Shown here piece by piece: positions 15,581 through 43,598 of a stretch of DNA of 64,000 nt. Below the pieces are notes generated by a model. It did no database searches, was not told where the DNA came from, and saw only the letters and a list, made by a program, of their open reading frames with translations. Source of the stretch: Gloeocapsa sp. PCC 7428 (GTDB lineage: Bacteria > Cyanobacteriota > Cyanobacteriia > Cyanobacteriales > Chroococcidiopsidaceae); contig NC_019745.1 of assembly GCF_000317555.1 (NCBI RefSeq), positions 868,001 through 932,000 on the forward strand, read 5' to 3'. Position 1 is the first letter of the stretch; every line of letters starts with the position of its first letter. A program made the position numbers and the translations under genes.

Positions 15581-15952
15581 CTACTTTTTTTGCAATATCA
15601 GCGGGCGTTGTCCTGGTTCAAACCGATTACTTTGTTCTCGCATTACAGATTGTGCTTGCTGGGGGTCGAAGTAGCGATTAAGGTCGGCGCGCAGACCTTC
15701 TACGCGTCCTTCAACTGATTGAACTTCAGCTTGAATTTCGTGAAGTTTTTGTTGTTGTGACAAGTAGTAAGGTAGAAGTTTGGCGATCGCCGAGCCAGCT
15801 GCGAATAAAAGCAGCAGATTGACAACCAATTTTGCCGTAGTATGAATCGCTGTCGCTCGATACGGATGACGACGACGCTGGGTTCGCTTGCGAGCAACTC
15901 GGCGAGGATCTTGAGGTTTGAGTGAGGGTCCAGACGGTTGAATAGCGTTCAT
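15581..15952 (-). CDS. Conserved small membrane protein with coiled coil, unknown function
   Basis: 123 residues. A basic, proline-rich N-terminal tail (about 1-33) precedes one membrane helix (about 40-62) and a predicted coiled coil (about 66-98), then a Gln-rich tail. This layout (cytoplasmic tail, one helix, coiled coil) is that of FtsB/DivIC/FtsL-like division proteins, but there is no sequence motif that proves kinship, so I leave it unnamed. It is convergent with the ArsR-family gene. Confidence 0.65.
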   Translation of the reverse strand: MNAIQPSGPSLKPQDPRRVARKRTQRRRHPYRATAIHTTAKLVVNLLLLFAAGSAIAKLLPYYLSQQQKLHEIQAEVQSVEGRVEGLRADLNRYFDPQQAQSVMREQSNRFEPGQRPLILQKK

Positions 15953-16560
15953 AACGGCTTAAAAGCTGCCCTAGAAAAAGCTAGATTGACAATACCAAGC
16001 TATTACGCTGGTTTTAGACAAATTTTTGCTGTAAATCTGTAATCAAGTAAAGATGATTCTTTGCTCAATTAATTCTGCTTTAAACAAGAATTCAGAATTT
16101 ACAAGGGAAAGATAAATGTTACTGCTTGATGACCCTAAAGCAATGAGCCATCTTCGGTTAGCTAAGGATTTAGGGTTGCAAGCCTCACGATGAGCGATCA
16201 AAAAAAGCATGGTATCTTTGTTCAAGAAATTTAGCTAGAAGCTAATCGCTTTTTTGACTTGCTCGGTGATGTCACGTAAACTCGCGCTGCTTCACAAGCA
16301 AGTTACCGCTAGTTTGCAAAACTTTCAACAGTAATTATACTGAAAAAATCTGAACTTTACTGAATTATGTACTGAGTAGAGGTCAGAACAAGCCTCACAG
16401 TCCTTCGGCTTAGGGATAAATTAAGTTACCGATTGCCATGGTAACTGAAAGGATGAAGAATCAACCGACAAAGAGTAGCAAGCTAACGGTATTTTTGCCT
16501 GCAACTACTCTAAGTGGCAATACCTTCATCCTTTCGAGGTTTATGCTGTTTTAAATGGTG
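15953..16560. other. Intergenic region downstream of psaM
   Basis: 608 bp. The left 470 bp hold nothing I can support as a gene. The right part contains the nested hairpins at 16424-16535. Confidence 0.5.
16424..16535 (-). ncRNA. Strongly folded element 3' of psaM (terminator, 3' UTR or small RNA)
   Basis: Perfect 12-bp inverted repeat GAAAGGATGAAG (16447-16458) / CTTCATCCTTTC (16524-16535). Inside it, AGAGTAG (16472-16478) pairs with CTACTCT (16505-16511), and the loop words GGTATT and GCC (16488-16499) are complementary to GGC-AATACC (16516-16524), which would form a pseudoknot that competes for one base with the outer stem. A further 7-bp hairpin AGTTACC/GGTAACT (16424-16446) follows on the minus strand and is trailed by TTAATTTAT, like a terminator. 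It starts 26 bp after the psaM stop. Strand and status as a separate RNA are unproven. Confidence 0.45.
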
Positions 16561-16656
16561 TTACTTGTAAAGCTCTGTTGCTAAACGGAAAGCAAGCACA
16601 CCAGGAATCAGTGCGACCACAAGTGCTACAAAAACTTGGGTATCTGATATAGACAT
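16561..16656 (-). CDS. psaM: Photosystem I reaction centre subunit XII (PsaM)
   Basis: 31 residues, exactly the usual length. One membrane helix runs through nearly the whole protein; it begins MSISDTQVF and ends FRLATELYK, the conserved ends of PsaM. It sits in the thylakoid membrane at the trimer-forming edge of photosystem I. A longer frame extends 39 codons upstream, but a perfect GGAGG lies 9-13 bp before the chosen ATG at 16656, and the extension has no resemblance to PsaM. No other photosystem gene is adjacent. Confidence 0.95.
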
Positions 16657-16939
16657 TTGAGGAAACCTCCTTGATGCAAAATGAATCGAACCATCACTAC
16701 TTTTGACCAAATTGTTCAGTTGATGGAATAAGTTTTTACAATATGAAACAAATTGAGAGAGGTCAAAGGTCACAGATCAAAGGTCAGGGAAGCTTTATAC
16801 TGATACAAAAGGATATTTTGAATCTCGCTACCAATCTTCCGTCATTTCCATCGATGAGTCCGCACCGGTTAAAATCAGCAACGTCTTGAGATTGTATTAA
16901 CCGTTGTAAAACCCTGATCCCCGACCTCTAATTTTCACA

Positions 16940-18250
16940 GTGTTTGACACCGTAAAAGATAATTACACACTTGGGATAGATTTTGGTACCTCTGGTGCAA
17001 GAGCAGTAGTTATCGATGATCTAGGAGTAGTGCAAGCCGAAACGAGAAAGTCGCTGACAGGAGAGGACATTACGCAGGTAAAGGCTTGGGAAAACGCTTT
17101 ATTTAGCTTAATTGCGGAAATTCCGCCAAAAATACGCCAACAAATTCATGCGATCGCCATTGATGGAACTTCTTCAACGGTTCTATTGTGCGATACAACA
17201 GGAACGCCAGTGACAACACCACTGATGTACAACGATACGCGCGGAGTCGCAGTACGAGAACAATTAAAAGCGATCGCACCGCCGAATCACACAGTATTGA
17301 GTGCGACATCGAGTTTAGCAAAGCTGTTGTGGCTATCACAGCAACCAACATTTAGCGATGCGAAATATTTCTTACATCAAGCTGATTGGTTAGCGTTTCT
17401 GCTTCACGGGAAACTTGGGATCAGCGACTATCACAATGCGTTAAAACTCGGCTACGACGTCGAGCATTTTTGCTATCCTGCGTGGCTGACACAACCAGCG
17501 ATCGCCTTTGGCGCTGGGCTTCGCCCAATCGCGCATTTATTACCGCAAGTTGTCGTTCCTGGTACGCCTGTTGCAGAAGTCACAGCAAGCGTTGCAACAC
17601 GCTTTCGCTTGCGCCGTGATTGCTACGTATGTGCGGGAACAACCGATAGTATCGCCGCGTTTCTTGCAAGTGGTGCAACTTCCCCAGGAGAAGCTGTAAC
17701 ATCACTCGGTTCAACTTTGGTACTCAAGCTTTTAAGTCATACACGCATAGAGAATAGCCTGTATGGCGTTTATAGCCATCGCTTAGGTGACTTATGGTTA
17801 ACAGGAGGGGCTTCTAATACAGGGGGCGCAGTACTGAAGCAATTTTTTTCCAACACCGAGTTAGAACAATTTAGCCGTCAGATTGATCCCCAACAAATCA
17901 GCCCACTTGATTACTATCCGTTATTGCAAAGTGGCGATCGCTTTCCAGTCAACGATCCCAACCTACAACCGCGCCTCGAACCACAACCAAATAATCGCGT
18001 CGAGTTTCTGCACGGATTATTAGAAAGCATTGCCCGTATCGAATACCAAGGTTATCAACTACTGCAACAACTCGGTGCAACTCCTCTCATCCGAATTTAC
18101 ACGGCGGGCGGCGGTGCGGCGAATACAACCTGGACTGCGATTCGTCAGCGTTACTTTGATGTACCGTTAGTGATGTCGCAGCACACCGAGGCGGCTTATG
18201 GTACTGCCTTACTCGCGATGCGCGGTATCAATCACAACAGGAACTCATAA
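16940..18250 (+). CDS. FGGY-family carbohydrate kinase (ribulokinase/xylulokinase-like)
   Basis: 436 residues, shorter than the approximately 500 of classical xylulokinases and matching the short FGGY kinases of cyanobacteria, one of which (from Synechococcus elongatus) has been reported to phosphorylate D-ribulose. Visible: the phosphate-1 loop GIDFGTSGARAVV near the start, IDGTSSTVLL, the Asp in HQADWLAFLL, the phosphate-2 segment GTTDSIAAFLASG, and the adenosine segment TAGGGAANTTW. Cytoplasmic. The start is GTG at 16940, consistent with the position of the phosphate-binding loop. Pentulose is the most likely substrate; glycerol or xylulose cannot be excluded. Confidence 0.88.
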   Translation: MFDTVKDNYTLGIDFGTSGARAVVIDDLGVVQAETRKSLTGEDITQVKAWENALFSLIAEIPPKIRQQIHAIAIDGTSSTVLLCDTTGTPVTTPLMYNDTRGVAVREQLKAIAPPNHTVLSATSSLAKLLWLSQQPTFSDAKYFLHQADWLAFLLHGKLGISDYHNALKLGYDVEHFCYPAWLTQPAIAFGAGLRPIAHLLPQVVVPGTPVAEVTASVATRFRLRRDCYVCAGTTDSIAAFLASGATSPGEAVTSLGSTLVLKLLSHTRIENSLYGVYSHRLGDLWLTGGASNTGGAVLKQFFSNTELEQFSRQIDPQQISPLDYYPLLQSGDRFPVNDPNLQPRLEPQPNNRVEFLHGLLESIARIEYQGYQLLQQLGATPLIRIYTAGGGAANTTWTAIRQRYFDVPLVMSQHTEAAYGTALLAMRGINHNRNS

Positions 18251-18840: not shown

Positions 18841-18965
18841 CTGCCCCCCTAGCCCCAAACACACAAGTTTCATCCTTATCTTCTCCCCCATGCATTGGGG
18901 GAGAGTGAGAGGGGGCGGGGGAAATTCTGAGTTGAAGTCCCCCATGAATGGGAGATTTAGGGGCA
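18841..18965. repeat. G-rich dispersed hairpin repeat
   Basis: Contains CTCCCCCATGCATTGGGGGAG (a 7-8-bp stem), the block AAGTTTCATCCTTATCTTCT and CCCCCATGAATGGGAGATTT. Related fragments occur at 14305, 34681 and 39026. It lies within the upstream extension of the ROK gene frame, which argues that this extension is not translated. Confidence 0.55.
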
Positions 18966-38876: not shown

Positions 38877-39473
38877 AGCCTTATGAAAAACTCACAATCA
38901 TCCATATTAGCTCGACATTTGTGTTTGAGTCTAGTGAGCGAGCGATAGTTCGTGTCAGATGATTAAATTCGGCTATTACAGAAGGGCATTGCCTAATCAA
39001 TGTATGAATCGTTAAGTAGCTGCACTCTTAGCCCCCTAAATCCCCCACGCTTGGGGGACTTTAAAAGAATTTGGTTCCCCCCAATTCTGGGGGGCGAGGG
39101 GGCAAATCATACTTCTGTTCAGCAACGCCTACAGAAGAAAGGCACAAGGCAAGATAGCAGAAGGTTTTGACACCATAGTAAAAAATAACTCTTCTCACTG
39201 CTTTCAGTGTTTGCAGCGTCTGAATTCGAGCAACAAGATAATCTGTATCTCCCGACACATTGCGCCAAAAATATGGTGCTGCGGTACAAAGCATTGCCTT
39301 GCACGCACAGATGCCTTCTTTATCTTGCTTGATTTTGTAAAACTATGACACAGTTCTTCTTTTTGTCGCTATATTATTAGGTATAATTTACAGTATTAAA
39401 AATAGTAACAAGGTATTGCAATTAATCGTTTGATACCCTTTGTTGCTTTAACTTTCCATGAGGCTTGCTGATA
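38877..39473. other. Intergenic region with G-rich repeat
   Basis: About 600 bp between rplS and the bilin lyase. Holds the G-rich repeat at 39026-39108. No support for a gene; short open frames here overlap the repeat or resemble nothing. Confidence 0.55.
39026..39108. repeat. G-rich hairpin repeat, double unit
   Basis: CCCCCTAAATCCCCCACGCTTGGGGGACTTT followed by GTTCCCCCCAATTCTGGGGGGCGAGGGGG: two adjacent hairpins of the same family as at 18841 and 34681. Confidence 0.55.
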
Positions 39474-41755: not shown

Positions 41756-41870
41756 AAGTCAAATGAGGGGTCAGAGGGCGGAGGTCAGGGTTTTTAGAGC
41801 AGAGGAGCCAGTTCGCTCAACGGAGGACACCTCCGCACCTTTCGACTGGCTCTTCCTCACTCCTTGCCCC

Positions 41871-43598
41871 TTAGTAGTGATTGCCGACTTTGCGATGGTG
41901 AACGGCGGTGAGGGCTTCGGGATTGCTGACTCTACCGGTTTCGATGGTGGCATAAACAATGTGGTGATCGCTTAGTTCCATCCGGCTTGTGACTTCGCAC
42001 TCCATGTAAGCTAGCGCTTCGGTAAGAATTGGCGCGCCATTTTGGGAAGGTTGGGTTTTAACGCCCTCGAAACGATCGGCACCAGGCGAGAAACGCTTGA
42101 GGAAGTGTTTCATTAAGTGCAGGTGATTGCCTTCTTCTAAGACATTGAGCACAAAGCGATCGCCGACTTGCATTAACGATTCAATCGCGCGGTCTTTCGC
42201 AACTGCAATTGTCACTCCGAGGGGCTTGAAACTTGCTTGTGTTACCCACGACGCCAACATTGCGCTTGATGCGTCGCCTTTTTTGGCAGTGATGATGTAA
42301 AGTCCACCGCTGATTCTACCTAAAGCTTTGTCGAGATCGGCATCTAAAGATTTCATAACTTTGATGCTGCGATCGCGCGTTAGCCATTGTCCTAAGTCAG
42401 TTCCTGCTTCTTCACACCGCTTGTAGGTTGCTTCGGTGGGTGCTTCTCTAATTTGAATTGCGGGAAAAGCAATCGAAAGTCCTAAATCGCGGAATTTGTT
42501 CAACAGTGGGTAAACTGGCTCATCGTCACTACCACCCGATTCAAAAATACCGACTGCTTGCTTTGCTTTAGCGGCGGCTAAGATGGTACTTAACACAGTT
42601 TGGGTGGTTTCCGCTGCATCTCCTGACGCGGGAGGCATTCCGATTACGATTCCTGATACGCGGCTAATGAGTTCCTGAACTTCTTGGAGATCTGCGGATC
42701 GCAAGTCTACAGTTTCAACCGCAACGCCTGTTTTGGTGATACCTTGAGCAATTGCTTGTGCGAGGCGATCGCTGTATCCATAATCGGAAGTATAAACAAC
42801 CGCAACGGTTGTTTCTGCCTTTGCTTGCGATTGACTCCAGACGCGATAACGGCGCGTGAGTTCTTCAACGTTGTGATACAGTAGTGGACCGTGACCTGTT
42901 GCGATCGTGGTCACTTTGCCTAGTTCGCCCATCCGTTTGAGTGCGGATAACACTGAACGTGCATTTGGAGCCATTAAGCAGTCGTAATAAAAGCGGAAAT
43001 CAGCTTCGATCGCGCCGAGGTCTTCATCAAAGGTATAATCGTCGCAATAGTGCAACCCAAAGGCATCACACGTGTAGAGAACTTGCGTTTTGCGATCGTA
43101 AGTGAACATCGTATCAGGCCAGTGCAAATTCGGGGCGCTGATGAACTCTAATTCATGCCCGTTACCTAAATCTAAGCGATCGCCGTTTTTCACAATTTGC
43201 CGCTTAAACGGCTGATGCACCATGTCTTCGAGAAACTGAAGCGCGACTTTTGAGCCTACGACTGTTGCTTCGGGAACAAGCTGTAATACGTCTTTGACTA
43301 AGCCGCTATGATCCGGTTCTGTGTGGCTGATAATGATATAGTCAATTTCTGCTGGGTCAATGACATGACGCAGCGTGTCTAAATAAAGTTGGCGAAATTT
43401 CTCATGAGAGGTATCGACTAAAGCCGTCTGCTCACCTCGAATGATAAATGAGTTGTATGTTGTGCCATTTTGCAAGCCAAACTCGATATCAAAGCGATCG
43501 CGATCCCAGTCGAGCGAGCGAATTGCGGTTGTATTGGGAGCAATGTCGGCAGTTTGCATTGTTAGCCGATTCTGGGCTTTATCGGTGAGCACTACCAT
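41871..43598 (-). CDS. flv3: Flavodiiron protein, Flv3-like
   Basis: 575 residues with the same three domains as its neighbour. Here the di-iron ligands are intact: SHTEPDHSG, the His of NLHWPD, the Asp in CDAFGLHY, and the His in GHGPL, which is typical of Flv3/Flv4. Paired with the Flv1-like protein it would form the heterodimer that uses NAD(P)H or ferredoxin-derived electrons to reduce O2 to water. GGAGG lies 10-14 bp before the ATG. Confidence 0.93.
   Translation of the reverse strand: MVVLTDKAQNRLTMQTADIAPNTTAIRSLDWDRDRFDIEFGLQNGTTYNSFIIRGEQTALVDTSHEKFRQLYLDTLRHVIDPAEIDYIIISHTEPDHSGLVKDVLQLVPEATVVGSKVALQFLEDMVHQPFKRQIVKNGDRLDLGNGHELEFISAPNLHWPDTMFTYDRKTQVLYTCDAFGLHYCDDYTFDEDLGAIEADFRFYYDCLMAPNARSVLSALKRMGELGKVTTIATGHGPLLYHNVEELTRRYRVWSQSQAKAETTVAVVYTSDYGYSDRLAQAIAQGITKTGVAVETVDLRSADLQEVQELISRVSGIVIGMPPASGDAAETTQTVLSTILAAAKAKQAVGIFESGGSDDEPVYPLLNKFRDLGLSIAFPAIQIREAPTEATYKRCEEAGTDLGQWLTRDRSIKVMKSLDADLDKALGRISGGLYIITAKKGDASSAMLASWVTQASFKPLGVTIAVAKDRAIESLMQVGDRFVLNVLEEGNHLHLMKHFLKRFSPGADRFEGVKTQPSQNGAPILTEALAYMECEVTSRMELSDHHIVYATIETGRVSNPEALTAVHHRKVGNHY

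Follow-up and report, generated by a model that had tools for sequence, protein, structure and literature searches.

A single-copy, covarying hairpin behind psaM of Gloeocapsa sp. PCC 7428 as a candidate structured 3' terminus of psaM mRNA

What is the large folded stretch that follows psaM in this cyanobacterial genome, i.e., is it the stable end of a message, a terminator, a small RNA or a mobile repeat? We analyzed it within a window of 64 kb, by which we mean the whole stretch of DNA under study. psaM was identified by a Pfam match (E 2.9e-17, at G000:C1:884564-884650, where G000 is the window's genome), and 25 nt separate its stop codon from an 89-nt element (Table 1). Two further stretches lie nearby. 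Upstream of psaM, positions 16760-16786 carry the near-tandem AGGTCAAAGGTCA/AGATCAAAGGTCA, with similar letters there in G002 and in genus g3. On the minus strand beyond the hairpin, genera g1 and g3 share a conserved block at 16266-16345, around TTCAGTATAATTACTGTTGA...GGTAACTTGCTTGTGAAGCA, which may contain a promoter or the 5' region of the transcription unit that follows (open reading frame 15581-15952).

Table 1. Features of the psaM 3' region in the window, and example members of the psaM 3' RNA of family f33.
Feature	Position	Strand	Basis
psaM, photosystem I subunit XII, 31 aa	16561..16656	minus	Pfam PF07465 match and reading frame
Whole 3' hairpin element, 89 nt	16447..16535	minus	fold z −6.4; kept in six genomes; nested fold
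Outer stem 5' arm, GAAAGGATGAAG on the psaM strand	16524..16535	minus	perfect 12-bp inverted repeat
Outer stem 3' arm, CTTCATCCTTTC	16447..16458	minus	perfect 12-bp inverted repeat
Inner stem 5' arm, AGAGTAG	16505..16511	minus	7-bp complementarity; consensus register in relatives about 2 bases off
Inner stem 3' arm, CTACTCT	16472..16478	minus	7-bp complementarity
GGTATT, proposed pseudoknot strand (unsupported)	16519..16524	minus	54.2% of cells paired, 0 two-sided
AATACC, proposed pseudoknot partner (unsupported)	16488..16493	minus	relatives' alignment and shuffled interiors
Small 7-bp hairpin beyond the element, interrupted T-rich tail TAATTTAT	16424..16446	minus	inverted repeat, reading
f33 RNA, example members of alignment A4	L111:539-638, L064:1373-1468, L052:1341-1439		extended hairpin and U-tract behind psaM

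The perfect 12-bp outer stem claimed in an earlier, sequence-only reading of this DNA is present. It is the sole perfect 12-bp inverted repeat with a loop of 3–80 nt in the 64-kb window, and repeats of this type occurred in 30 Markov-1 random sequences at a mean of 0.13 and a maximum of one. Folded as RNA of the psaM (minus) strand, the element reached −39.8 kcal/mol (z −6.4), and none of 200 shuffles was as good; the plus strand gave z −5.5. Among the 6392 frames of the window, six were more stable than the minus-strand element; five of these have a higher G+C content, and the sixth is a frame over the element itself. The fold behind psaM is real. Other very stable frames of the window lie at 39021-39115, 18841-18935 and 41781-41875, with the lowest energy (−48.6 kcal/mol) at 39021 on the minus strand.

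To describe how the fold has changed among relatives, we used an alignment of the element from six genomes, the window's included (A2). In the nested fold, standard pairs filled 94.5% of 164 cells and two-sided changes occurred at four pairs, so the covariation that the sequence-only reading had proposed to look for is present. The outer helix had 94.9% of its cells paired, with a two-sided change at two pairs. The covariation score of the nested fold was equalled by 3 of 500 shuffles; two other measures lay within the shuffle range, i.e., the count of two-sided pairs (44/500) and further pair types (429/500). When the fold was slid by 1–3 columns, 41.5–55.5% of cells remained paired. The proposed 7-bp inner stem held up as complementarity in the window but not in its exact register, as 73% of its cells were paired in the relatives and the inner helix of the consensus sits about two bases away from where the window's own fold places it. 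The six sequences support the outer stem, and they support that an inner helix exists.

A hairpin of DNA can be read on either strand. On the nested fold we counted 18 G-U cells on the psaM strand versus four would-be G-U cells on the other, with a fold that was itself derived on the psaM strand. The consensus energy was −21.6 on the psaM strand versus −19.8 on the other strand; mean single-sequence energies were nearly equal (−35.1 versus −34.8), and two of the six sequences (G002 and G010) folded slightly better on the other strand. Together this is a modest lean, not proof, toward an RNA that would be transcribed together with psaM.

We propose, at about even confidence, that psaM mRNA ends in this structure. 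The element would form a single long hairpin with internal loops on the minus strand and serve as an exonuclease barrier or a non-canonical terminator. Pointing this way are the z score of −6.4, the 94.5% pairing with its covariation, the lean toward the psaM strand, the single copy, the place next to psaM in all six carriers, a stem that bears no U-tract and the frequency of long hairpins behind other psaM genes of the order (see below). The strong, covarying fold at a fixed place thus agrees with two suggestions of the sequence-only reading, namely that the structure is too elaborate for a plain terminator and that it may be a stable 3' end. RNA polymerase would probably pass psaM without meeting a classical U-tract terminator, and its stopping points would be scattered or lie at a weak site a little farther on. 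Trimming by 3'-5' exonucleases would then shorten the transcript until the 12-bp base of the hairpin halted them, and the short psaM message would gain a defined, stable end. Transcription of the element, an mRNA end at this place and protection of that end are each steps that we infer. Rho is missing from cyanobacteria, where many mRNA ends have no U-tract (PMC13289151), and stable structures halt PNPase (PMC10989914). PMC13289151 also reports, however, that in S. elongatus such ends mostly lack stabilizing hairpins, which counts against a general protective role. Further points against our proposal are the modesty of the strand lean, the two covariation measures within the shuffle range and the 13 of 19 family genomes that do not carry the element.

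An unusually long intrinsic terminator would release the polymerase directly, either by the long stem or by the stem together with the small hairpin and its interrupted T-rich tail. A stable hairpin does lie at the putative end of the transcription unit (z −6.4, 25 nt behind psaM). The first eight nucleotides behind the stem, however, hold only 2–4 T in the six genomes of the window's clade, too few for a U-tract; in the window the tail directly behind the big stem is AGTTACCATG, with two T in the first eight. The additional hairpin and T-rich tail noted earlier are both there: arms AGTTACC/GGTAACT (16424-16430/16440-16446) are followed on the psaM strand by TAATTTAT, which has five T in eight and is interrupted. 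By reading, this second hairpin occurs in two of the six genomes, being common to G001 alone among the five relatives, and a tail with five T in eight follows it in the window alone. A terminator scan, which allows loops of up to 8, called no site here; it is blind to both hairpins because of this loop limit.

Long hairpins at this place also follow psaM in other families of the order, which speaks for a structured 3' end. We sampled 99 psaM 3' regions, one per genome, for a single unbranched hairpin of at least 20 pairs, spanning 70–125 nt and starting no more than 45 nt from the stop codon. The window's element, with start 25, span 89 and 30 pairs, lies within this rule and within 80–100 nt of span. 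A first control set (47/99 psaM regions versus 23/174 gene ends) included gene-dense ends, and we therefore made a stricter one, which required 160 nt free of any open reading frame of 60 aa behind each gene end. Against these controls, the hairpin was found behind 41 of the 99 psaM genes versus 5 of 43 gene ends (P = 0.0004, or 0.002 when the window's clade, with its six genomes, is left out; both values are optimistic because related genomes are not independent). By family, hairpins were found in 11/17 regions of the window's family, 15/30 of f33, 5/8 of f2 and 10/44 of all others, the last including one Scytonema record that we counted as f33-like. Within 400 nt behind psaM, the motif TAAATTGTCTGGTA (up to three mismatches) also occurred in 22 of the 99 regions versus 2.45 expected from mononucleotide shuffles. 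Its carriers are L015, L047, L009, L136, L007, L050 and others, none in the window's clade; the sites lie partly beyond the hairpins, and the motif may be part of a promoter.

Family f33 has a covarying psaM 3' hairpin of its own; since this RNA also occurs in records of Scytonema and Tolypothrix, we take the family to be Nostocaceae. We aligned 18 regions (A4), hand-picked for shape and likeness, so that 13 of 31 f33 or f33-like regions were left out. Their fold had 86.5% of 482 cells paired and two-sided changes at 17 of 27 pairs; there were 62 two-sided cells versus 28 in shuffles, and the covariation score was reached by none of 500 shuffles. The consensus energy was −7.7 on the psaM strand versus −2.4 on the opposite strand. 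At least five T in eight were found within 3 nt of the stem in 17 of the 18 sequences, and the f33 RNAs hence resemble terminators built on a long, conserved hairpin.

A covariance model of the f33 RNA (R1), searched over 291 genomes of the order, matched at least 18, all of f33; the count is a lower bound because the search was a coarse first look with strict filters. psaM was directly upstream of the match in 18/18 (in G259 by reading). Five matching genomes lay outside A4 (G201, G217, G239, G247 and G259). Two named records outside A4 matched as well, i.e., Scytonema hyalinum, with psaM directly upstream, and Tolypothrix campylonemoides, with psaM about 240 nt upstream. In the latter (L059:2465-2700) the distance from psaM to the hairpin is about 240 nt versus a few in two Scytonema records, and the extra spacing is possibly an insertion.

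The f33 hairpin resembles the window's element in place (about 20–40 nt after the stop codon), in size (about 80–100 nt), in being an extended hairpin with internal loops and in its covariation. It differs in its outer stem, CCTGG/CCAGG, in the U-tract behind it and in its letters throughout. With filters off, R1 gave no match at the element within 15900-17000 of the window and nothing at the hairpin of L005, which belongs to the window's clade. It matched the hairpin behind psaM weakly in L009 (E 0.012) and L022 (E 0.26), and at that place more weakly still in L047 (2.4) and, on the opposite strand, in L024 (3.9). A covariance model of the six sequences of the window's clade (R2) found none of the f33 RNAs. 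The matches in L009 and L022 are suggestive of a wider family; common descent of the clade's element with the f33 RNA is unproven despite the like place and size. One might go further and suppose that a structured 3' RNA of about 80–110 nt, ancient and quick to change, accompanies psaM in this order, and that the f33 RNA and the window's element would be two diverged forms of it. Shape rather than letters would then be selected, since a cellular factor would read it to form the message end or to tune stability to light, without Rho. We consider this broader idea unlikely as it stands. As for the window itself, a long terminator is possible in view of the f33 hairpins at the same place and of like length, and of the second hairpin with its T-rich tail, but the few T behind the clade's stems and the patchy occurrence of that second hairpin leave it with a lesser, tentative share of our confidence.

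The structured end could instead belong to a small RNA, either released from the 3' end of psaM by cleavage or transcribed there, and acting on other messages as ApcZ behind apcC does. The compact, stable fold and its conserved place would suit such an RNA, and cyanobacteria do have small RNAs derived from 3' ends (PMC8136909, in its available part). Yet the letters vary freely while the pairing stays, no conserved open seed was apparent by eye in A2, and the element itself lacks a U-tract; we hence regard a small RNA as improbable.

Perfect terminal inverted repeats around an interior that itself holds inverted repeats could also be what is left of a mobile element whose terminal repeats measured 12 bp, as the sequence-only reading had considered, and the element is indeed absent from other genera of the family. 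The genome search proposed in that reading, however, returned one copy in the window's own genome (next best match E 0.5) rather than many dispersed ones. In the family, the element was found in 6 of 19 genomes, always behind psaM, three of them from genus g1 (the window's included) and three from g3; the 13 genomes without it include those other genera, and psaM itself was identified in 17 of these 19 genomes. The exact two-arm pattern was present in five of the 19 genomes, four times at psaM and once, in G006, away from that genome's psaM. Over the 291 genomes of the order, R2 found no new member, its six strong matches being its training sequences. Five further R2 matches (E 0.01–0.04) had no psaM by motif in their loci and were taken as chance. 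Single copy, the same site in two genera and compensatory changes later than the supposed insertion strongly disfavor the mobile repeat, which we hold to be very improbable from these comparisons.

The loop pairing had been described as pseudoknot-like. Its letters are present in the window, read on the forward strand as GGTATT (16488-16493)/AATACC (16519-16524) and GCC (16497-16499)/GGC (16516-16518), and genus g3 has a 6-nt match built on UUUU/AAAA at a like place. The pseudoknot version of the fold had 82.8% of cells paired overall in the six genomes because it shares the outer stem with the nested fold. In the relatives, the GGTATT/AATACC helix had 54.2% of cells paired and zero two-sided changes; the GCC/GGC helix had 91.7% paired, but with gaps at two of its three pairs in three of the six sequences. 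The AATACC segment (16519-16524) moreover overlaps the outer stem at base 16524, and the longest match between the two segments, 6 bp, was reached or exceeded in 526 of 2000 shuffled interiors. A pseudoknot is not supported by these sequences because of the poor GGTATT/AATACC pairing, the lack of two-sided change and the shuffle-like helix length, and that the working form is a true pseudoknot with this helix seems to us hardly credible.

We therefore return to the structured 3' end and ask how it relates to what has been described. Rfam 15 had no match at the element; the two matches of the window are a tRNA and a ribosomal protein L10 leader (RF00557, 35786-35957, minus strand, 61.8 bits), both elsewhere. 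A scan of 16 psaM loci, of which ten are from f33 or Scytonema, likewise gave no family at E values up to 1. The literature searched, outside which lie most subscription journals, held no paper on a psaM 3' structure or on the f33 RNA, and within it the latter seems undescribed. In the available text of three papers, 'psaM' stands for plasmid names with no psaM 3' structure (PMC6166021), psaM does not occur (PMC4734099), or psaM appears as a small protein with no 3' structure described (PMC5126843).

How mRNA ends are formed and protected in cyanobacteria, which lack Rho, is an open question according to the available part of PMC13289151. psaM is a very short gene with a 3' hairpin kept by covariation while the letters change. 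Its natural versions differ in the U-tract, which f33 has and the window's clade does not, and swapping them behind one reporter would part termination from protection.

Known systems, as far as the accessible parts of the papers describe them, resemble the element in different respects. The psaA motif (RF01752, PMC2864571) likewise links a structured RNA to a photosystem I gene of cyanobacteria; unlike the psaM 3' element, it lies in psaAB 5' UTRs and has three hairpins. ApcZ (PMC8136909), derived from the 3' end of the apc operon, is also a structured RNA behind a photosynthesis gene with an elongated stem-loop. It differs in its established features: a length of 137 nt, a short Rho-independent terminator, a dedicated promoter and a known target. 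The defined 3' ends of S. elongatus (PMC13289151) share with the proposed psaM end that they do without a U-tract, but they mostly lack strong structure. The REP hairpins of E. coli (PMC13289151) are repeated elements, unlike the single-copy psaM element, and they protect 3' ends without terminating transcription, which is the likeness to the role that we propose for the psaM hairpin.
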